A DNA stretch of 22,041 nucleotides from a virus: the IMG/VR virus record IMGVR_UViG_3300006753_000093, positions 1 through 22,041 of that record. One strand, 5' to 3'. Below are positions 5,254-22,041 of this stretch, one piece after another (the stretch's first letter is position 1; each line of letters starts with the position of its first letter). The notes under the pieces are model-generated. The model did no database searches. It saw only the letters and a program-made list of their open reading frames with translations, and was not told the DNA's origin. The position numbers and the translations under genes were made by a program.

Positions 5254-5280
5254 AAGGGGGCTTCGGCCCCCTTTTTCTTT
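5254..5280 (+). terminator. Intrinsic terminator after the head operon
   Basis: AAGGGGGC (5254-5261), TTCG tetraloop (5262-5265), GCCCCCTT (5266-5273), followed by a T-rich tract up to 5280. An 8-bp stem capped by the very stable UUCG-type loop is a textbook rho-independent terminator. It sits 13 bases after a stop codon and separates the head genes from the tail genes. Confidence 0.93.
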
Positions 5281-13110: not shown

Positions 13111-14793
13111 ATGTCTTATCTAGGAAGAACTCAAAACAAATCGAGCGATATTCGCAGATTTGATGTAACCAGTTCTACATCTGCTACGCACACGTTAACG
13201 TGGACTCCCCCCAATGAGCAGTCCCTTATAGTCACGATTAACGGTGTTAAACAGCATGAGGACGCTTACTCAGTCTCCGGTACTACGCTCACCCTGACAT
13301 CGGCCTTGGTTGCTGAAGATAAACTGGAAGTCATCGGTATCAACGATATCGGAACTACGATTACTCCAGCGCAAGGTTCAGTAGATACAGACCAACTTGC
13401 TAACGATGCTGTTACTTCTGCAAAGATAGTAGACGGAACTATTGTTAATGATGATATAAATTCATCTGCGGCTATAGCAAATAGCAAAATGGCTTCTGAT
13501 ACTACTGATGCATCTAATATCTCATCCGGTAATTTAGCGGTAGCCAGACTTAATTCAGGAACATCAGCGTCTGCTACTACTTTTTGGAGGGGTGATGCAA
13601 CATGGGTTACACCAACAGATACTACATACAATGACGCAGCAGTTCTTAATGATATAGCCACTCTAGCATTACATTCCGCCGTTCAGAATAATCAAGCAGC
13701 CTATAACTTATCTAATGCTTTTATAGATCAATATGAGGACAGCAGTGGTATTGATGTTGCAACCGATTGCTCCAGAGTTGCATCTGGAGAATATGTGTCT
13801 ACGATTTACACTACTGCTGGTAATGACTCTTATACAGTTCTACTCCTACATTGCGATGGGGCTGATGATGGAACTACTTTTACTGATTCTTCAGCATCTG
13901 GACATACTATAACGGAATCAAGTGCTGTTACTAAAACCGCAATTAAAAAGTTTGGAACAGCGTCTGCTTACTTTAGCGGCAGTGCAATGCTAAACGCACC
14001 AGATGGAAGTGATTGGGTTTGGGGTTCTGATCCTTGGACAGTAGACACGTGGGTTTATAATGATAATCAAAGTACCTTAACTAGATTATTTTCATATATT
14101 GGAGCAGGCCCGGTGTATGGACTTTATTGCCGTCCAAGTGGCCAATTTTACTACGGCGGCTATTCACCCGCTCTTTCTCTTGATGGGTTTGATGTTGATT
14201 ATGCCGATAATACATGGACACACCTAGCATGGGATTATGATGGATCAGGAACTGCAAGAAGTTATGCTAATGGTGTGGTTCAAAAGACTCAGACTGGTAT
14301 TTCGGGTTCAGGAACAGATGCAAGCGCAACTTTTAGAATTGGTAACGCATCAACATCCTCACAGTACTACATTGGTTATATGGATGAAATCCGTGTATCA
14401 AAAGGAATCGCTAGATATGAGGGGGCATTTACGCCGCCTACTGAGGGGTATGGTGTGACCAGTACAAATGCTGCAGGAAACTATACATCTACTACAGAAA
14501 CAGCTTCCGCAACAGTTAGTGAGATGGGAATTGTTGTTCTTTATAAAAATGCGTATGGAACAGCGACTCTAAATACAGATTTGATTGCAGCGATATCAGC
14601 GGATGGTGGAAGTAATTACACTACTACAACCTTAACTGCGGCTGGAACCTTCTCCACAGGGATAAATATAGCGGTGGCAAATGGAGTCAGCATAAGCAAT
14701 ACTGGAACAGCACCAAAATATAAAATTAGTTTTGCTAATCAATCTGCATCATCAAAAGAAACCCAAGTCTATGGCGTTGCACTACTCTATTAG
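13111..14793 (+). CDS. Modular tail fibre paralogue 1, LamG-like central domain (560 aa)
   Basis: Residues 1-80 form a beta domain (LTWTPPNEQSLIVTINGVKQ at 29-48) common at the start of phage fibres. Residues 90-130 carry SAKIVDGTIVNDDI repeats. The linker at about 178-217 (NDIATLALHSA, YNLSNAFIDQYED) is shared with the paralogues. Residues about 241-447 look like a LamG/concanavalin-type fold: LLLHCDGADDGTTFTDSS, FGTASAYFSG, WTVDTWVY, TWTHLAWDYDG, YIGYMDEIRVSKGIARY. This is the expected order of LamG_3 strands. Residues 457-560 are the shared C-terminal module ending YGVALLY. The stop TAG forms part of TTAGGA, the probable ribosome binding site of the next gene. Likely a receptor-binding fibre recognising a glycan. 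Confidence 0.8.
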   Translation: MSYLGRTQNKSSDIRRFDVTSSTSATHTLTWTPPNEQSLIVTINGVKQHEDAYSVSGTTLTLTSALVAEDKLEVIGINDIGTTITPAQGSVDTDQLANDAVTSAKIVDGTIVNDDINSSAAIANSKMASDTTDASNISSGNLAVARLNSGTSASATTFWRGDATWVTPTDTTYNDAAVLNDIATLALHSAVQNNQAAYNLSNAFIDQYEDSSGIDVATDCSRVASGEYVSTIYTTAGNDSYTVLLLHCDGADDGTTFTDSSASGHTITESSAVTKTAIKKFGTASAYFSGSAMLNAPDGSDWVWGSDPWTVDTWVYNDNQSTLTRLFSYIGAGPVYGLYCRPSGQFYYGGYSPALSLDGFDVDYADNTWTHLAWDYDGSGTARSYANGVVQKTQTGISGSGTDASATFRIGNASTSSQYYIGYMDEIRVSKGIARYEGAFTPPTEGYGVTSTNAAGNYTSTTETASATVSEMGIVVLYKNAYGTATLNTDLIAAISADGGSNYTTTTLTAAGTFSTGINIAVANGVSISNTGTAPKYKISFANQSASSKETQVYGVALLY

Positions 14794-14801
14794 GATAAAA
14801 C

Positions 14802-16031
14802 ATGGCTAGAACAACAATCAGAAGCGAAGATATCGCTGACAGCGAAATAACCTCTGCGAAGATAGCGGATAGCACAGTAGTAGCGGCAGACGTTGCTGAT
14901 GATTCCATCACTAATGCCAAGATCAAGTCAGACGCATCTATAGCGGCAACCAAACTAGCAGGTACTCTGGATTTATCTTCCAAGACGGTAACGCTACCAG
15001 CGGCATCAGTTACCGCGCACGTTACCCAAACTGATCTTTCTCCTGTTAGGAATGACATAGCAACGCTCGCACTGCACTCAGCGATTGCCGACAACAAAGC
15101 GGCTTACAACTTATCGAATTCCTTTATAGACCAGTTCGAGGACAGCACAGGTATTGATGCCACAAGCACAACGATAAGAGATACTACGAGCGAATATGTT
15201 TGGTGTGCCACTGCATCATCGACAGAAACTTTAGGCTATAACGACAGTTTAACAATCGCTTATAGCACTACCGGCGGATCCACCCATCTACAGTCCTCAG
15301 GATCGTATTTAGAAAATAATAGTCTCAGTACAACCTATGGTTGGTATTTTATTGGGGGTTCTGGCATTGCATATCTTATTTATGATATGACCAAACCAGT
15401 TGTTTTGTCGGAAGCGCAATTTCATTCTTTCAATACAGCGGCGCGTCCTAAAGATATGTATTTGGAATGGTCGTCAGACAATTCATCTTGGACAGAAGTA
15501 GTACCGACTGGGGTTGTTTCTGGTTTGGGTGGTTCAATAAGTGGAAATAAGTATACCGCTGACAATACTGACGCGTGGAAGGGGATTACCTTTAGCGCAC
15601 TCTCCGCAAGATATTGGCGATGGAGAGGGGAAACTGTTCACAACAACGGCAACAACTACGCAGGGATTTCTGAAACGAAATTTCCGAGTGCGTACTATTA
15701 CACTGTTAGTTCTTCTGGAAACTATACATCTACCACTGAAGCCTCTGTCGCATCCGTTAGTTCAATGGGAATTGTTGTGCTTTATAAAGATGCCTCTGGC
15801 ACAGCATCTCTGAATACCGATCTCATTGCACAGGTTTCAGCCAACGGTGGCACGAACTACTCAAACGCCACGCTTGTTGCGGGTGGAACATTCTCGACTG
15901 GAATAAAAATAGCGGCAGTCAGTGGCGTTTCGGTAACAGCGGGAACTACGCCAAAATACAAAATATCTTTTGCCAACCAATCTGCGGGTAGTAAAGAAAC
16001 GCAGATACACGGCGTTGCACTACTCTATTAG
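14802..16031 (+). CDS. Modular tail fibre paralogue 2, discoidin-like central domain (409 aa)
   Basis: This one lacks the N-terminal beta domain and starts directly with [SA]-K-I type repeats (SAKIADSTVV, NAKIKSDASI). Linker at residues 55-117: SSKTVTLPAASVTAHVT, NDIATLALHSAI, YNLSNSFIDQFED. Residues about 165-295 resemble a discoidin (F5/8 type C) galactose-binding domain: YLIYDMTKPVVLSEAQFHSF, MYLEWSSDNSSWTEV, WKGITFSALSARYWRWRGE and a final GISETKF. Residues 306-409 are the shared C-terminal module (SMGIVVLYKDASGTASLNTDLIA at its core). Without the N-terminal domain it may attach to another fibre or to the nozzle through its repeats. It could form hetero-oligomers with the longer paralogues. 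Confidence 0.78.
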   Translation: MARTTIRSEDIADSEITSAKIADSTVVAADVADDSITNAKIKSDASIAATKLAGTLDLSSKTVTLPAASVTAHVTQTDLSPVRNDIATLALHSAIADNKAAYNLSNSFIDQFEDSTGIDATSTTIRDTTSEYVWCATASSTETLGYNDSLTIAYSTTGGSTHLQSSGSYLENNSLSTTYGWYFIGGSGIAYLIYDMTKPVVLSEAQFHSFNTAARPKDMYLEWSSDNSSWTEVVPTGVVSGLGGSISGNKYTADNTDAWKGITFSALSARYWRWRGETVHNNGNNYAGISETKFPSAYYYTVSSSGNYTSTTEASVASVSSMGIVVLYKDASGTASLNTDLIAQVSANGGTNYSNATLVAGGTFSTGIKIAAVSGVSVTAGTTPKYKISFANQSAGSKETQIHGVALLY

Positions 16032-16040
16032 GAATTAACT

Positions 16041-17282
16041 ATGGCATTAACAAAAGTAAAGAGCGGTATGAGAACGCTGGCAACCGATGAAGTTACCGCA
16101 ACAGAGATTGCCGCTGGTGCAGTCGATACTGCGGAGATCGCTACCGATGCAGTGACTGCAAACGAAATCGCGGCGGGTGCTGTCGCGGCATCAGAGATCG
16201 CATCGACGTTCGATATTTCATCCAAGACGGTAACGCTACCGGCGGCGGCAGTTACTGCTCACGTTACAGCCACAGATATAAAGCCACTGGAAAACAACAT
16301 TGCACTGTTGGGATTTTATCGAGCCATCGATAACAACAAGGCAGTGTACGAAATGCAAGATGTTGTCATCGATAATTTTGAAGATGCGACGGGTGTTACG
16401 TCATCTACAAACGGCAGTCGAGATGCTACGGGTGAATACTACTCGCTCGAAGGCGATGGAACCTTTGGCTACGGAGACAGTATTTCAATTACTTGGACAG
16501 CATTTGTTTCGGGTGAAGCCAGTCCACGTTCAGTCCCAAATTTAGAAGATAACAGCACTGCATATGCTAACGGAACTGGTGCCACATCGAACTGGCAAAT
16601 TCAAGCCGATCTTGGAGCGGAGTACAACATAACAGGGTGGCAAGGTTACCACTCACAAGCAAACGGCATGGTTGCTACGGCACAGATGATGACTAAAGAC
16701 TCCGCTTGGTCTACGTCAACTTGGAACGATGGCACGGCAACCATCAATACATCATCCGGTGGATTGACCGCATCAACAGGAATTACCAGTGTTAGCGGAA
16801 CCACGATCAATGTCACCAACGGAACGGGATGGAAGAAAGTAACGTTCAGTGGCGTCACCACACGTTATATCGCTTGGCAAAACATGACGACTCAAGTGGG
16901 TAACGGGAATCACTACTGCGAGGAAGTTCAGATTTTTCACCGCTCACCTACCAACGCGACTGGCAACGTTATCAGCACGACCACTACTGCAAAAACTCAG
17001 CCGACTAAAGCCAGTGGTTTATTAATGATTGAGAACGCAGGTGGTACGGCAGTGCTGAATACAGACATCAAGATGTACGCCAGTCGGGATGCCTCTACAT
17101 ACACGCAAGGTACTTTGGTAGACGAAGCAACATGGGGAACTAACAAAAAAGTTTTAGCCTTCAACGACCTCGACATCTCTGGACAACCCTCCGGCACATC
17201 GATGCGATGGAAACTCGAATGGGCGAACCAAGCAACCGCCAAGAACACGCGCATCCACGGTGTTGCGCTCATGTGGAAATAA
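16041..17282 (+). CDS. Modular tail fibre paralogue 3, discoidin-like, most diverged (413 aa)
   Basis: A short N-terminal lead (MALTKVKSGMRTLATDEV) is followed by 10-residue repeats of the type AV[TDA]..EIA.. (residues 18-55). The linker at 60-75 matches paralogue 2, and 20 bases of DNA are identical (14979-14998 and 16221-16240). Its later linker is changed: ALLGFYRAIDNNKAVYEM replaces the usual TLALHSAI...YNLS. Residues about 160-300 look discoidin-like: NWQIQADLGAEYNITGWQGY, WKKVTFSGVTTRYIAWQ, HYCEEVQIF. The C-terminal module (308-413) is the most diverged and ends HGVALMWK, although the core GTAVLNTDIKMYAS and KLEWANQAT are recognisable. The gene overlaps nothing and is followed by a 4-base gap. 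Confidence 0.77.
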   Translation: MALTKVKSGMRTLATDEVTATEIAAGAVDTAEIATDAVTANEIAAGAVAASEIASTFDISSKTVTLPAAAVTAHVTATDIKPLENNIALLGFYRAIDNNKAVYEMQDVVIDNFEDATGVTSSTNGSRDATGEYYSLEGDGTFGYGDSISITWTAFVSGEASPRSVPNLEDNSTAYANGTGATSNWQIQADLGAEYNITGWQGYHSQANGMVATAQMMTKDSAWSTSTWNDGTATINTSSGGLTASTGITSVSGTTINVTNGTGWKKVTFSGVTTRYIAWQNMTTQVGNGNHYCEEVQIFHRSPTNATGNVISTTTTAKTQPTKASGLLMIENAGGTAVLNTDIKMYASRDASTYTQGTLVDEATWGTNKKVLAFNDLDISGQPSGTSMRWKLEWANQATAKNTRIHGVALMWK

Positions 17283-17286
17283 AAAT

Positions 17287-18747
17287 ATGAGTTACATAGG
17301 AAACGAACCGAGGTTTACTCAGTTCCCATCTAAGTTCTTTAATGGGGACGGCTCCGCAATGACGGTGACCCTAGACTATGCTCCACCTAATGATGCCGCC
17401 TTACTGGTCTTCATAGACGGGGTAAGACAGGATACTGATGCGTATAACTGTACAGGAACGAGTTTAACTTTTACTGGCGCAGTACCCACTGGAACCGCTA
17501 ACGTACAAGTAGTTCACATGGGGCTGACGCTGGACGTAGGTGTACCCGGTGATGATACAGTCACTGCGGCGAAGATTCAGGATGATGCAGTAACGTCTGC
17601 TAAAATAGTAGATGGTGCAATCGTGAACGCCGACATCAATGCGAGTGCGGCGATTGCACAATCCAAACTGGTAAACATAGTGGACGCAGACATAGATGCG
17701 TCAGCGGCAATCGGTGCGGGTAAGTTGGCATCGACTCTTAACTTGGCGAGCAAGACAGTTACATTACCAGCCGCATCAGTTACTGCTCATGTAACTGCGT
17801 TCGATGACGTTCCAATACGAAATGACATTGCGACTTTAGCACTACACTCAGCAATCTCTGATGACAGAGTAGCCTTCAATTTATCCAACGCCTTTGTGGA
17901 TCAGTTCCAAGATGATACCGGACTGGATGTAGAAACATCGACTGACCGACACGCAAGTGAATACGTGAAGATTGCGGCAGGGGCAGAGACACTACTTGCA
18001 CATGATGTTGGAACCATCGACTCCACAAATTTCACTGTGGGTAGCACACCTGAAAACCTCTACGACGGCATTCATTCGACTACCGCGGGGGCTACAGCCT
18101 CTGCAGAACCGAGTTGGGTTATTTATGATTTTGGTTCGGGGAACGCAAAACTTCTAACCAAGACCATAACGTATGGGCGTGAAAACAGTGGGGGATATGG
18201 TGGTTACGATTACTACGATCCAAGTATAACGATCAATGTTTTAGGGTCTAACGATAATAGTAGTTACACCGACTTGGGTGGTGCTGTTACTTTTACGGAC
18301 ACGGCATCTCCAAACCCTCAAACCATTACGCACACGACGACGACTGCTTATAGATATGTCAAAACAACATTGTCTGCCGGTGACATAATGACTGAAGTAC
18401 AACATTACAACGTGCCAGATGTTGCGGCTGGTAATTTTACGTCTGTTACTCAAACCGCTTTAGCAACCGTTAGCAAGATGAGCATCATCGTGCTTTATAA
18501 AAATACTCTAGGCACGGCAACGCTTAACACAGATTTGGTTGCGTCAGTTTCATCCAATGGGGGTACAAATTACAACGCCGCTACACTGACTGCGGGAGGC
18601 ACATTTTCGACTGGGATTCTTATTGCTAAATCGAACGACATAACAATCAGCAATACCGGCACTGCCCCTAAATATAAAATTGCTTTCGCTAATCAAGCAA
18701 CAGCAACTAAAGCGACAGAGATACACGGTGTGGCACTTCTTTATTAG
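17287..18747 (+). CDS. Modular tail fibre paralogue 4, discoidin-like central domain (486 aa)
   Basis: The start is ATG 17287 (MSYIGNEPRF), chosen because it aligns with paralogue 1 (MSYLGRTQNK); the frame runs nine codons further upstream into the preceding gene. Residues 1-80 form the N-terminal beta domain (LDYAPPNDAALLVFIDGVRQ at 29-48). Residues 92-150 are AKI/ADI repeats, and the linker is at 155-212. Residues about 247-375 are discoidin-like: ENLYDGIHST, SWVIYDFGSGNAKLL, INVLGSNDNSSYTDLG, AYRYVKTTLSAGDIMTEVQHY, matching the usual strand order. Residues 381-486 are the shared C-terminal module ending HGVALLY. No clear ribosome binding site precedes the start (AAATAAAAAT), so it may depend on coupling to paralogue 3. 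Confidence 0.8.
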   Translation: MSYIGNEPRFTQFPSKFFNGDGSAMTVTLDYAPPNDAALLVFIDGVRQDTDAYNCTGTSLTFTGAVPTGTANVQVVHMGLTLDVGVPGDDTVTAAKIQDDAVTSAKIVDGAIVNADINASAAIAQSKLVNIVDADIDASAAIGAGKLASTLNLASKTVTLPAASVTAHVTAFDDVPIRNDIATLALHSAISDDRVAFNLSNAFVDQFQDDTGLDVETSTDRHASEYVKIAAGAETLLAHDVGTIDSTNFTVGSTPENLYDGIHSTTAGATASAEPSWVIYDFGSGNAKLLTKTITYGRENSGGYGGYDYYDPSITINVLGSNDNSSYTDLGGAVTFTDTASPNPQTITHTTTTAYRYVKTTLSAGDIMTEVQHYNVPDVAAGNFTSVTQTALATVSKMSIIVLYKNTLGTATLNTDLVASVSSNGGTNYNAATLTAGGTFSTGILIAKSNDITISNTGTAPKYKIAFANQATATKATEIHGVALLY

Positions 18748-18756
18748 GAATAAAAC

Positions 18757-18837
18757 ATGGCGATCACAAAAGTAACTTCTGGGGTTCGAGACATCGCAAC
18801 TGGCGAAGTCGTAGCGGGTGACTTGGGGTGGAGTTAA
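18757..18837 (+). pseudogene. Truncated fifth fibre paralogue (26 codons)
   Basis: Starts at ATG 18757 after TTAGGAATAAAAC, the same stop/ribosome-binding arrangement as between the other fibres. The product MAITKVTSGVRDIATGEV followed by VAGDLGWS aligns with the start of paralogue 3 (MALTKVKSGMRTLATDEV) and then ends at TAA 18835-18837. It keeps a working start site but has lost repeats, linker, central domain and C-terminal module. It is best read as a deletion remnant at the end of the fibre array. A functional 26-aa peptide cannot be ruled out. Confidence 0.65.
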
Positions 18838-18838
18838 T

Positions 18839-18871
18839 ATGACCCTAATACCCGTAGATAATGTCGAATGA
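18839..18871 (+). CDS. Possible 10-codon leader frame, coupled to the next gene
   Basis: ATG 18839 follows GGTGGAG at good spacing and reads MTLIPVDNVE, stopping at TGA 18869-18871. That stop overlaps the ATG of the secreted-protein gene (18868) as ATGA. The downstream ATG has no ribosome binding site of its own, so ribosomes finishing this frame could restart there. Too short to support by composition. Confidence 0.35.
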   Translation: MTLIPVDNVE

Positions 18872-19218
18872 GAATTAAATCCGTCCTGATAGCCGCCTTC
18901 ATGGCGGCTTTTTTAATGCCCGTTCAGGCGAAAATGTTCCCTACAGAATTCCCGATCAAGAGTGTCTGTTGGAACGATGTTGATGAGGCCATTACATATC
19001 ATCAAGAAGTGTTAGGCGAGTACCCTATTGGAAAGGGGTGGATCAATAACAAACAAGGCCCATCATTTGGAGCCATCATGTTTAACCCCAACAAACCTTC
19101 TTGGACGTTCCTAAGTTTTCATAAGGGGGAAGAGGGCGTAATAGTTTGCGCTATTACTGGTGGAACTGTTTGGGAAATAATACACCTCGGAGATGAGGGT
19201 GGGAAACTAGAGTTATGA
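18868..19218 (+). CDS. Small exported protein of unknown function (116 aa)
   Basis: A Sec-type signal peptide is clear: MRIK, hydrophobic core SVLIAAFMAAFLMPV, then QA-KM as a probable signal peptidase I site after residue 21. There is no lipobox cysteine, so the mature protein of about 95 residues should be periplasmic. It has two cysteines (CWNDVDEAITYHQ near 34 and VIVCAITGG near 93), which could pair, and a WTFLSFHKGEE strand. The family is not recognised. The stop overlaps the next start (ATGA at 19215). A terminator hairpin lies within the signal-peptide codons (18891-18914). A periplasmic role in lysis or superinfection exclusion is possible but unsupported. Confidence 0.72.
   Translation: MRIKSVLIAAFMAAFLMPVQAKMFPTEFPIKSVCWNDVDEAITYHQEVLGEYPIGKGWINNKQGPSFGAIMFNPNKPSWTFLSFHKGEEGVIVCAITGGTVWEIIHLGDEGGKLEL
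18891..18914 (+). terminator. Intrinsic terminator inside a coding region
   Basis: AGCCGCC (18891-18897), loop TTCAT (18898-18902), GGCGGCT (18903-18909), with six T in 18909-18914. The 7-bp GC-rich stem and T tract meet the usual criteria. It lies in codons 8-16 of the exported protein, about 145 bases after the last complete fibre gene, so it could end the fibre transcript or act as an attenuator. Confidence 0.7.
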
Positions 19219-19478
19219 GCAACGGGAACCAACTGAATAAAAGCCTGTCTGTAGGACACATAGTGGCCACGGTAGGTTTGATAATCGGTGGTTTCACGTT
19301 TATATACGATCTAAGGGAGAGTGTGGCAATACAGGAATTTCAGCTTACTTCTTTAGAAGATAGGATGGGAAGGATAGTCGAAAGAACCGATGACCAATTT
19401 GATGCCATAATGAGTAGATTTAACGTATTAGAGGAGAAATTAGATGCACTTGTTTTATCTACCCACATTAACGAATGA
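19215..19478 (+). CDS. Membrane-anchored coiled-coil protein, possible lysis protein (87 aa)
   Basis: One transmembrane segment at about residues 13-30 (VGHIVATVGLIIGGFTFI) follows a short polar N-terminus. A helical region (about 35-80) has heptad-like hydrophobic spacing: FQLTSLEDRMGRIVERTDDQF, FNVLEEKLDALVL. This N-terminal-anchor plus coiled-coil layout is seen in holin-like and inner-membrane spanin-like phage proteins, and also in fibre-proximal membrane proteins of unknown role. No endolysin is in the window to support a lysis cassette. Overlaps the preceding gene as ATGA and the following 44-aa frame by 35 bases. Confidence 0.7.
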   Translation: MSNGNQLNKSLSVGHIVATVGLIIGGFTFIYDLRESVAIQEFQLTSLEDRMGRIVERTDDQFDAIMSRFNVLEEKLDALVLSTHINE

Positions 19479-19578
19479 TGTTGAGTGGAAAAAAATTGCT
19501 TTACGCACCTACTTGTGCTGGTCTGTCTGTGTTGACATGGCGGCTTTAGCGGGAATCCTTTGGTATATATTTAAGTGA
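19444..19578 (+). CDS. Hidden small membrane protein (44 aa), overlapping frame
   Basis: ATG 19444 is preceded by GAGGAG at 19431-19436, seven bases away, one of the better ribosome binding sites in the window. The 44-aa product has a polar start with a charged EWKK near residue 14, then a hydrophobic stretch at about 20-43 (TYLCWSVCVDMAALAGILWY) ending in FK. It begins inside the 87-aa gene in another frame and ends nine bases before the start at 19588. Without it, 19479-19587 would be an unusually long gap here. A holin-like or regulatory membrane peptide is possible; the family is not recognised. Confidence 0.55.
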   Translation: MHLFYLPTLTNDVEWKKIALRTYLCWSVCVDMAALAGILWYIFK

Positions 19579-19587
19579 GGAATAATT

Positions 19588-19983
19588 ATGGCAGTTGAAG
19601 ATAAGAAAGTTATTGAAAGCCCACTTCAGAATGTTGCTATGAAAAAGGTTTATGAAGCTAAGAAGAAGGCACAAGAAGTAACGACAGATACCAAGCCAAC
19701 TTATCCAGCAGTTAAAACTCCATCAACATTGAAAACAGTAGGCAAGGGGACAGATTTCAAAATGGGCGGTTATCCAGAAGGAGTTCCACCCGGTGCTAAT
19801 AAAACGCGGTGGGATTATGATGATGTCTCTAAAAAGTACTTGATAGGAGATGCCAAGGAATCAAAACGGCGTTCCCTATGGGACAATTACCGATCAATTC
19901 ATAAAAAGCAGGGCAGACGCGCATCTTCTTTTGTTAAAGAAGTTATGTCGAAGCCTAGCGTGAGAAGTATGAAATATGGCTAA
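19588..19983 (+). CDS. Basic hypothetical protein, possibly virion-associated (131 aa)
   Basis: Rich in Lys and Arg throughout, with a Lys-rich N-terminal helix (MKKVYEAKKKAQEV), a Pro/Thr linker (about 33-50), a Gly/Pro segment GGYPEGVPPGANKTRWDYDD (about 60-80), and a basic C-terminus (KESKRRSLWDNYR, KKQGRRASS). No membrane segment. GAGG at 19577-19580 is its ribosome binding site. It overlaps the 340-aa gene by 8 bases, so the two are probably made together. The charge suggests DNA or RNA contact, for example a packaged or internal virion protein; this is inferred from composition. Confidence 0.68.
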   Translation: MAVEDKKVIESPLQNVAMKKVYEAKKKAQEVTTDTKPTYPAVKTPSTLKTVGKGTDFKMGGYPEGVPPGANKTRWDYDDVSKKYLIGDAKESKRRSLWDNYRSIHKKQGRRASSFVKEVMSKPSVRSMKYG

Positions 19984-20998
19984 AGTAACTTTTGACCAAT
20001 GGAAGGAAAACGTAACGTGGAAGGGCGTTAGGTTAGGTGAGGATGAATCCTCTGATGAGGCGATGTATCAGAACTATTCGACTGAGTACGATGCCGCTGA
20101 TGCCGCCGCTCAGAAGGCGATGAATGTTTCCCACGGATTTTCCAAATTTAATACAGAAGCTGGCGACAATATATTAGATTGGGAAGACAAACCAGAAGGG
20201 CCGGGAGAATGGGAAGCCCCAGACGAGCCATCATATACTCCGCAACTTGGCGGGGCTACTACTGTAGACGAATTTGGTTATGGTAAAACGGCTGTTGCTG
20301 GACAACCTGTTCTGCCTACTCCGTTAACTATTCCGGCTCCAGATCAGAGGGCTGTTAAGCCAGAAGAATTGGTTGAGCATAGACTGACTGAGTTTATGAA
20401 GGAGTCAAACCCTTTCACTCAAATGGCTATTACTCAGTCTAAACAACAGTCAATAGCGGCGGGGCAATTCAATACCAGCATGATGATTGATTCTGGTCTT
20501 TATCTTGCCGCCAAAGTAGGACTTGATGTAGTTAGGGACGACGCCGCATGGATTCGCGCTCAAAAACTTGAGAACCAACGAGCCGCGAATAATTTCCTCT
20601 TTGAAGACTGGAAGACTAAAAATCAATTCACGCTGACTGATTATGGCGCAAGAATAACCACCTACAATCAGGCATTAGAGAAAGCCCATACCAAAAATGA
20701 GAACGCCCTAGAAAGATATTGGAAGAAAGAGCAAAATCGACTGGACAGGGAACTAACTGTTTGGCGTGATCGGTACAAAGGTTCATTAGAAAAATGGTTG
20801 GCTGATAAAGAGTACACAGCCGACGAAACTTCAGGCATGAAAGACTGCGTGGAGAATGCATTACAAAGATGGCAGACGGCTGTTGCCAATATTGATCTTG
20901 AATACACAAAAGACGAGATGAGTGTTGACGCTTACAATCATGCTATCCAAAGTGCGTCTCAAATGAGGGATCGAGAGGTATCTGCCTGTAGGCTATGA
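19976..20998 (+). CDS. Helical hypothetical protein, possible internal virion/ejection protein (340 aa)
   Basis: Residues 1-60 are acidic and helical, about 60-130 are Pro/Glu-rich and probably disordered, and about 130-325 are strongly helical. The segment around 140-200 (FTQMAITQSKQQSIAAGQFNTSMMIDSGLYLAAK... NQRAANNF) has the spacing 'Q..Q...rG..NSSM...a...a......DA......NQ..aN' that I associate with virion-associated proteins of marine podoviruses, where Gln/Asn-rich helices are frequent. Two Cys lie near the C-terminus (about 291 and 338). No enzymatic motif is visible. It sits downstream of the fibres and ends in an ATGA overlap with the GNAT gene. The ejection role is inference from composition and position. 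Confidence 0.65.
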   Translation: MAKVTFDQWKENVTWKGVRLGEDESSDEAMYQNYSTEYDAADAAAQKAMNVSHGFSKFNTEAGDNILDWEDKPEGPGEWEAPDEPSYTPQLGGATTVDEFGYGKTAVAGQPVLPTPLTIPAPDQRAVKPEELVEHRLTEFMKESNPFTQMAITQSKQQSIAAGQFNTSMMIDSGLYLAAKVGLDVVRDDAAWIRAQKLENQRAANNFLFEDWKTKNQFTLTDYGARITTYNQALEKAHTKNENALERYWKKEQNRLDRELTVWRDRYKGSLEKWLADKEYTADETSGMKDCVENALQRWQTAVANIDLEYTKDEMSVDAYNHAIQSASQMRDREVSACRL

Positions 20999-21441
20999 TA
21001 CGTGATGCGACCTTAAAAGACATTCCAGAGTTAATAGAGTTCCTGAAACCCTTCCACGATGAGGGGGGCTATATGGACATATCTATTGACGCGAAGGTTA
21101 TGAAAATTAACCTTCAAAATATGCTCTCTTCGCCCATGCATAAGATATGGGTCGTGGAGAGAGATGGCGAAATATGTGCCTCTCTTGGCGTTGTCAGTAC
21201 GGAAATATGGTATTCCAAACGGCATTACGCCACAAATCTATTTCTTTGCTCTAACAACAAAGGTAAAGGATCGGCTGGCTTTCTCTTGAGGAAGTTTAAG
21301 AAGTGGTGTGATTCCCGACCAATAATCAGGGATGTCACTCTGGGAATAACTAGCGAAATAGGTGATATAAAACGTGTTGAACAACTTTATCAAGCGATTG
21401 GATTCAAACGCCTCGGCGGTTTATTCAGGTTAAAAATATGA
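20995..21441 (+). CDS. GNAT-family N-acetyltransferase-like protein (148 aa)
   Basis: Probably moves an acetyl group from acetyl-CoA to an amine. The N-terminus MIRDATLKDIPELIEFLKPF is the typical first strand and helix of GNAT proteins. The strand IWVVERDGEICASLGVV (51-67) matches the central 'v.e.dg.ivG' strand. NKGKGSAGFLLRKFKKWC (88-105) matches the acetyl-CoA pyrophosphate loop and its helix, in the 'R/Q..G.G/A' position with K in place of R. RVEQLYQAIGFKRLGG (127-142) is the usual C-terminal 'a..lY.k.GF' motif. The length is normal. It overlaps both neighbours as ATGA. The substrate is unknown. GNAT-like genes beside virion genes recur in marine phages. Confidence 0.78.
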   Translation: MIRDATLKDIPELIEFLKPFHDEGGYMDISIDAKVMKINLQNMLSSPMHKIWVVERDGEICASLGVVSTEIWYSKRHYATNLFLCSNNKGKGSAGFLLRKFKKWCDSRPIIRDVTLGITSEIGDIKRVEQLYQAIGFKRLGGLFRLKI

Positions 21442-22041
21442 GTTTATTCAAATCTACTAAGAAGAAAGGTTTCTTTTCCAAGTTTAAGAAGATGGTAAAG
21501 AAAATTGCAACGGTGTTGCTGATAGCCGCCGCTGTATATTTCGGCGGAGCATACTTAATGAGTATGGGAGCCGGACATGCCCAAGCCGCATCCGTGGCGG
21601 GGTCGTTTACCAAATCTGCTGGCGTCTGGAAATCTTTTCTTTCTGGAATAACGAATGGAACTGCTTCATCTTCCGCCGTTGCATATGCAGAAGCCTCGTA
21701 TAAGGCTATGCAAACCGGTGCTACGGTAGCAGAGTCAGCACTCGCTGGAACTGTCGCATCTCAGGGTGTTGGTCAGAGTTTACAAGTTAGTGATGCTATC
21801 AATAATGGTGTAGCGGCTGTAAATGATAGTAGACAATTAGATGCAACTTCTCCCGATATACCCGTATTAAAGAAGGTCAATCAAATTGTAGGCCAAAGGT
21901 CTGTTGAAGAGGTTGTTGAAGAAGTTGATCCGAATACCACCACAAATTTAATCACTGGACAGACAGTTGATCGTGGTACTGATATCAGTGCGTCTTCTAT
22001 AAATGCGGCGGCAAATCGTGAGGTAGCCGATACAGGGGGAA
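21438..22041 (+). CDS. Membrane-anchored Ala/Ser-rich protein, 3' end outside window
   Basis: Starts at ATG 21438, overlapping the GNAT stop as ATGA, and stays open for 201 codons to the window edge. A very basic N-terminus (KSTKKKGFFSKFKKMVKK, residues 5-22) is followed by one transmembrane segment at about 23-44 (IATVLLIAAAVYFGGAYLMS). The rest is rich in Ala, Ser, Val and Gly with helical stretches (SVAGSFTKSAGVWKSFLSG, ATVAESALAGTVASQGVG) and an acidic patch (VEEVVEEVDP near 157). The basic-then-hydrophobic start predicts the N-terminus inside the cell. Large Ala/Ser-rich proteins with a membrane segment late in podovirus virion modules are often ejection or internal virion proteins. The family is not recognised. 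Confidence 0.7.
   Translation, partial: MSLFKSTKKKGFFSKFKKMVKKIATVLLIAAAVYFGGAYLMSMGAGHAQAASVAGSFTKSAGVWKSFLSGITNGTASSSAVAYAEASYKAMQTGATVAESALAGTVASQGVGQSLQVSDAINNGVAAVNDSRQLDATSPDIPVLKKVNQIVGQRSVEEVVEEVDPNTTTNLITGQTVDRGTDISASSINAAANREVADTGG

Follow-up and report, generated by a model that had tools for sequence, protein, structure and literature searches.

A conserved terminator-like hairpin within signal-peptide codons at a tail-gene boundary of environmental phages

Terminators in coding regions are usually dismissed as false positives or deemed harmful. Why, then, should a hairpin with the marks of an intrinsic terminator lie inside the signal-peptide codons of a phage gene? The question is posed by IMG/VR virus record IMGVR_UViG_3300006753_000093, whose positions 1-22,041 (22,041 bases, the whole stretch of DNA analysed, hereafter the window) carry recognisable portal, capsid and tail-fibre genes. 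A literature search returned, within the collection and wording searched, no report of a natural terminator in phage signal-peptide codons. The initial annotation of the window had proposed a translation-dependent attenuator, in which ribosomes passing from a 10-codon leader into the gene for an exported protein would cover the hairpin and let transcription continue.

The hairpin and its surroundings in the window

The junction comprises the following features.

17287-18747, + strand: tail fibre gene, the last long frame upstream of the hairpin
18757-18837, + strand: 26-codon frame MAITKVTSGVRDIATGEVVAGDLGWS*, a probable fibre-gene relic (likeness judged by eye)
18839-18871, + strand: 10-codon frame MTLIPVDNVE*
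18868-19218, + strand: exported-protein gene, 116 aa, with signal peptide MRIKSVLIAAFMAAFLMPVQA and without a Shine-Dalgarno site of its own
18891-18909, + strand: terminator hairpin AGCCGCC-TTCAT-GGCGGCT in signal-peptide codons, conserved in relatives
18910-18914, + strand: T-run (U-tract), translated as Phe/Leu codons
19215-19478, + strand: small membrane-type protein, phrog_24782 (function not known), by profile match

Direct reading of the sequence agrees with the initial annotation in placing the hairpin and T-run (18891-18914) in codons 8-16 of gene 18868-19218, counted from the ATG at 18868-18870. The stem has 7 bp, 6 of them GC, with arms at 18891-18897 (AGCCGCC) and 18903-18909 (GGCGGCT) around the loop TTCAT (18898-18902). 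It ranks first among 14 sites in a consensus scan of 14000-22041, and a stricter scan of the whole window on both strands returns two strong terminators (the other is intergenic, 5254-5273), where 30 first-order Markov sequences yield 0.03 on average. The 42-nt hairpin RNA of the window folds at -14.8 kcal/mol (z -3.3); across eight loci, minimum free energies run from -9.3 to -16.6 kcal/mol (z -2.8 to -3.7). As background, five cultured phage stretches (225,130 bases) hold 26 terminator-like sites, 19 of which score at least 5; three of these 19 lie inside a same-strand coding sequence and one of the 19 starts in the first 30 codons (by eye). Rfam gave no match within the window. The lone sequence is nevertheless weak evidence and the case rests on comparison, because the peptide AAFMAAF is intrinsically hairpin-prone; among random synonymous recodings of the window signal peptide, 3303 of 40000 pass the terminator test.

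The 10-codon frame is real, with its TGA (18869-18871) overlapping the gene ATG as ATGA and its end about 19-20 nt from the hairpin. Its anti-Shine-Dalgarno pairing reaches -7.0 kcal/mol, as the good binding site claimed for it would lead one to expect, but folding predicts that a local stem encloses the site. The exported-protein gene does lack a binding site of its own (+0.3 kcal/mol, the weakest among the window starts tested). Absent from the earlier account was the 26-codon frame at 18757-18837, which precedes the leader and resembles, by eye, the N-terminus of the fibre ORF at 16041 (MALTKVKSGMRTLATDEV...). Given the predicted pairing of its binding site and this fibre-like frame ahead of it, the leader appears to belong to a fibre-gene junction that has decayed. 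A dedicated leader as an element of the architecture does not hold up: it is found in the window and in none of the 22 other hairpin loci, where the overlapping stop belongs to the upstream gene or to a short relic frame (L064-L066), and it appears incidental to the window record.

The surroundings yield further observations. Four successive fibre-like genes between 13111 and 18747 (at 13111, 14802, 16041 and about 17287) have similar C-terminal ends, by eye, and with the 26-codon relic at 18757 they make up a tandem fibre array. A promoter-like match at 18834-18862 (TTAATA-17-GATAAT, 9/12), from which RNA would start near the ATG at 18868, is probably due to chance, because such sites are fewer in the scan than in shuffles. 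Downstream, the membrane-type gene starts at 19215, overlapping the exported-protein gene stop, and in relatives too it follows that gene. No holin or endolysin is recognised downstream of the hairpin in the window, and the window's exported protein matches no Pfam or PHROG family. The phrog_25396 profile matches the exported proteins of L016 (6.4e-17), L088 (9.6e-06) and L011 (0.0016), but neither that of the window nor that of L008, and the L012 protein matches only another family, and that weakly. A fold search with the predicted exported-protein structure (pLDDT 69.9) gave nothing below E 0.001 and weak PsbP/DcrB-like matches. Near the window end lies an acetyltransferase-like gene (20995-21441; phrog_1249, E 3.5e-19).

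Occurrence of the hairpin in near and distant relatives

Relatives of the window protein were found at six loci by whole-protein search and at 23 by family-alignment search, of which 22 were judged, the contig of L041 beginning after the signal peptide. Among these 22 nearest homologues with a visible signal peptide the hairpin occurs once, in L026, on the same contig as L005 and L009; the other 21 lack it, their signal peptides being different and in most cases of the MKKLL...LPLAxSA type. The hairpin is therefore dispensable in the window's own gene family. Relatives that keep the signal peptide without the hairpin had been named in advance as evidence against the attenuator, and this is the state of 21 of the 22 nearest homologues, though not of the distant families described below. 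On a tree of mature domains (19 rows) the hairpin carriers are scattered, with 3 changes against a shuffled mean of 2.9, and no clustering can be claimed from these 19 rows; the scatter may tentatively be read as gain or exchange of the signal-peptide part independently of the mature domain.

Cultured phages offered few comparisons: blastn of window 17200-20000 and tblastn of the window, L012, L011 and L008 proteins gave no matches among them, and the L016 protein has tblastn homologues in 32 records, with no hairpin in the signal peptide in any of the eight homologues examined from these 32. In Roseobacter phage RDJL Phi 1 (L055 2830-2849) an ordinary intergenic terminator lies about 80 nt before an exported gene related to that of L016, a boundary of the same kind but with the terminator outside codons.

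The exact hairpin followed by T5 occurs in 16 viral stretches, in ten of them (L008, L009, L011, L012, L014, L015, L016, L018, L019 and L021) within the signal peptide of a small exported protein and in six as an apparently plain non-coding terminator. A search with all codings of AAFMAAF[LF]MP, meant to avoid selection by nucleotide, returned eight viral stretches from four lineages, all eight with the exact hairpin codons; its five matches in bacterial genomes all look like non-coding terminators, and by eye two of these directly follow the end of a tRNA. Mature-domain queries only were used to fetch the L011-type set of 18 distinct contigs (17, and L088 as the eighteenth, at 55% identity), and all 18 have the hairpin and T6-7 at the same signal-peptide codons. 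Five further loci, the window counted among them, have the identical hairpin. The resulting comparison covers 23 loci, the window and 22 others, leaving out L021 (a near copy of L016, hairpin present) and repeat fetches of contigs. In 23 of 23 the five alignment columns right after the stem (31-35) are invariably T, and the frame is open from the stop-overlapping start through the hairpin. The hairpin is thus not private to the window record, being present in several environmental phage groups.

The geometry of the junction recurs as well. In 22 of the 22 other loci, start codon and upstream stop share 4 nt or 1 nt, and in the window the leader stop provides the overlap, so that the coupling to a preceding frame described in the initial annotation is general among hairpin carriers; the same overlap is also present in relatives without the hairpin, and to that extent it is not a property of the hairpin. 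The spacing from stop to left arm is 17 nt at one locus, 20 at two (the window's leader counted), 23 at two, 26 at six, 29 at eleven and 32 at one, and the hairpin begins 21-33 nt from the start codon. The Shine-Dalgarno site at the overlapping start is weak in most loci and strong in L061, L062, L071, L072 and L075. As in the window, a short frame precedes the exported gene in L064-L066, where it follows the tail-assembly gene; it ends ...DPANPDWPEL* in L065, and in L064, L065 and L066 it resembles the end of a second assembly gene.

The initial annotation's placing of a terminator-like element between fibre genes and downstream genes, within signal-peptide codons, is borne out: where genes are assignable, the hairpin separates tail-fibre and assembly genes from holin and endolysin. 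The order in L088 is tail fibre (phrog_19943, phrog_24898), tail fibre assembly (phrog_4912), exported gene (phrog_25396), one gene without assignment, holin (phrog_3427) and endolysin (phrog_7). In L012 a tail fibre assembly gene lies upstream of the exported gene, and in L016 a member of the endolysin-annotated family phrog_873 lies downstream. For the 627-residue gene upstream in L009, no known function was matched. Elsewhere on L009 (4388-4690) is a phage gene of phrog_17776 with a CGCG motif near its end, which resembles an A-type iron-sulphur carrier.

Conservation of pairing beyond the protein

Stems of the L011 type differ from one another while remaining paired: GCCGCC/GGCGGC (loop TTCAT or TTACT), GTCGTC/GACGGC, GCTGTC/GACAGC, GCTGTC/GACGGC and GCCGTC/GACGGC. 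At the fifth stem pair C-G alternates with T-A, and the protein changes with it (Ala/Val and Ala/Thr). In this set (12 distinct rows) 94.0% of cells are paired, against 14-64% for slid partners, and the covariation score is 0.310 against 0.211 shuffled, a value reached by 0 of 500 shuffles; two pairs have changed on both sides, a count that alone is reached by 62 of 500 shuffles. Over all 23 loci, 94.1% of cells are paired, three pairs are doubly changed and no shuffle out of 500 attains the covariation score. The 18 L011-type contigs are kin, which leaves few independent events, and because related sequences may exceed shuffles without any structure, the slid controls and the differing stems weigh more.

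Codon choice points the same way in some comparisons. Between the window and L009, codons for the same residue are identical in 7 of 7 cases within the hairpin and 29 of 70 elsewhere (p=0.0035); between the window and L012 the figures are 6 of 6 and 9 of 28 (p=0.0037). Three of the 15 pairwise codon tests fall below p 0.01 and the other 12 between 0.06 and 0.85, and none of those within the L011-type family is significant one by one. To the question of whether relatives conserve the hairpin or the amino acids, paired changes that alter residues and the codon tests answer that the hairpin is retained beyond the demands of the protein. As judged from their sequences, base changes in related phages preserve the predicted stop signal even where the protein is altered. 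Such paired changes would make this a case of a terminator retained in a natural coding sequence by substitutions that alter the protein as well.

Possible roles of the hairpin

From the computed hairpin, its position, the conservation of its pairing and the gene order, we infer that a dual-coded intrinsic (Rho-independent) terminator probably steps down transcription at the boundary between tail and downstream genes, largely independently of translation. The hydrophobic signal-peptide core could host such an element, the GC stem encoding Ala, Val, Thr and Leu and the U-tract Phe. At 17-32 nt past the preceding stop, the terminator would occupy its usual place, though the next gene starts on that stop; ordinary intergenic terminators in the window and related phages lie 12-24 nt after stop codons. 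Most tail-region transcripts would end at the hairpin, and the fraction reading through would serve as message for the exported protein and for the genes that follow, including holin and endolysin where these are assigned. Downstream genes would thereby be held below the structural genes, possibly with lower or delayed lysis as the benefit, and in some of these phages the boundary would set the amount of lysis protein made.

Translation of the host ORF probably alters termination only modestly. In the measurements of Li et al. (PMC4824070), translation of a second ORF cost a terminator placed 30 bp behind its AUG only about 10% of its efficiency in E. coli, since a ribosome that has just initiated cannot reach RNA polymerase within about 100 nt, and terminators were efficient when located in the first 100 bp of coding sequence. 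A ribosome at a stop codon represses partially in the same source, with efficiencies of 0.12 to 0.8 at 17-18 bp spacing, and efficiency reaches its maximum at distances from the stop codon above about 27-30 nt. Because of these measurements, a nested terminator with partial read-through is favoured over a translation switch; loci spaced at 17-23 nt, among them the window with its leader, fall in the intermediate-efficiency range of that study. Its synthetic construct W48, engineered in E. coli, has nearly the same geometry (30 bp from start to hairpin). Transcripts ending at such a terminator are non-stop for restarting ribosomes, a cost also described there (PMC4824070), which would fit the weak own initiation seen in most loci.

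The foremost alternative is the translation-dependent attenuator itself, in which a ribosome at the upstream stop, or one restarting on the overlapping start, would block the hairpin, so that read-through would report translation of the tail genes. In its favour, start and stop overlap at all 22 of the other loci and, by way of the leader, in the window, and the 17-32 nt spacings include the partial-repression range of PMC4824070. However, the spacing at 12 of the 23 loci (29 or 32 nt) reaches or exceeds the limit, the overlap occurs with or without the hairpin, the overlapping start of five loci has a good Shine-Dalgarno site, and the leader is confined to the window. Translation-dependent read-through as originally claimed finds no support in the small loss reported in that source for a terminator 30 bp inside an ORF, or in the position of the last long frame, which ends (18747) more than 140 nt before the hairpin. 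We regard an attenuator as unlikely. Slightly less likely again is a family of late-operon timers, in which ribosomes finishing the tail-fibre or assembly genes would tune read-through and lysis expression would follow tail-protein translation; if real, it would be marked by a start locked on the upstream stop at 17-32 nt spacing with a terminator in signal-peptide codons.

An RNA structure with another job, be it a 3'-end or processing element shielding upstream mRNA or an early structure that slows ribosomes, would account for a stable, conserved hairpin early in the signal peptide, but the T-run kept after the stem in all 23 loci is a specific mark of intrinsic terminators and a translational pause needs none, which makes this reading improbable. 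Terminators may also stabilise upstream RNA, so that it overlaps with the terminator reading. Less credible still is a by-product of codon choice in Ala/Phe-rich signal peptides, or of an exchanged signal peptide, without selection on the RNA: the share of synonymous recodings that pass the terminator test (8.3%) is not negligible and recent exchange would explain the identical window hairpin in several lineages, but the stems at these codons differ, with paired changes that replace residues, and lineages that agree in the hairpin codons diverge at synonymous sites immediately flanking the hairpin. Least credible of all is a true start at one of the in-frame ATG codons after the T-run, which would leave the signal peptide untranslated and the terminator intergenic, given the frame open through the hairpin at 23 of 23 loci, the classical signal peptide of close relatives without the hairpin at this place, and the AlphaFold helix at residues 3-15.

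The proposed nested terminator shares with bacterial and phage intrinsic terminators the GC-rich stem, short loop, T-run and distance from the stop, and identical or similar hairpins occur as apparent non-coding terminators (six of 16 viral stretches, five of five genome matches); it differs in lying inside the 5' codons of the next gene and in being kept with compensatory amino-acid changes. In E. coli the terminator of the upstream frd operon doubles as the attenuator of the next gene, ampC, as may be the case here, but the ampC attenuator precedes the coding region. The pyrBI attenuator of E. coli is an intrinsic terminator in a translated frame upstream of the genes it controls. The phage hairpin likewise sits inside a frame that is open, and predicted to be translated, at 23 of 23 loci, but the pyrBI frame is a short leader peptide and not the signal peptide of a full exported protein, and in the window 18839-18890 has no run of three or more T to serve as a UTP-sensing pause. 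This attenuator is among the systems discussed in PMC5021804. Attenuators of the trp/his type differ as well: in minimum-free-energy and centroid folds of window 18757-18915 the terminator hairpin stands alone, with no alternative antiterminator pairing.

A single stretch of DNA would on our reading serve as both RNA signal and export signal, with the hydrophobic signal-peptide core as a coding-compatible site for a terminator. The junction offers a natural test of how far near-start translation overrides intrinsic termination, and gene or terminator finders that exclude overlaps will miss such elements. Intergenic terminators also lie directly before successive fibre-type genes in L065 (1966-1984) and L067 (938-952 and 2586-2604), with the next start within about 20 nt, and late genes in these phages appear to be punctuated by terminators.
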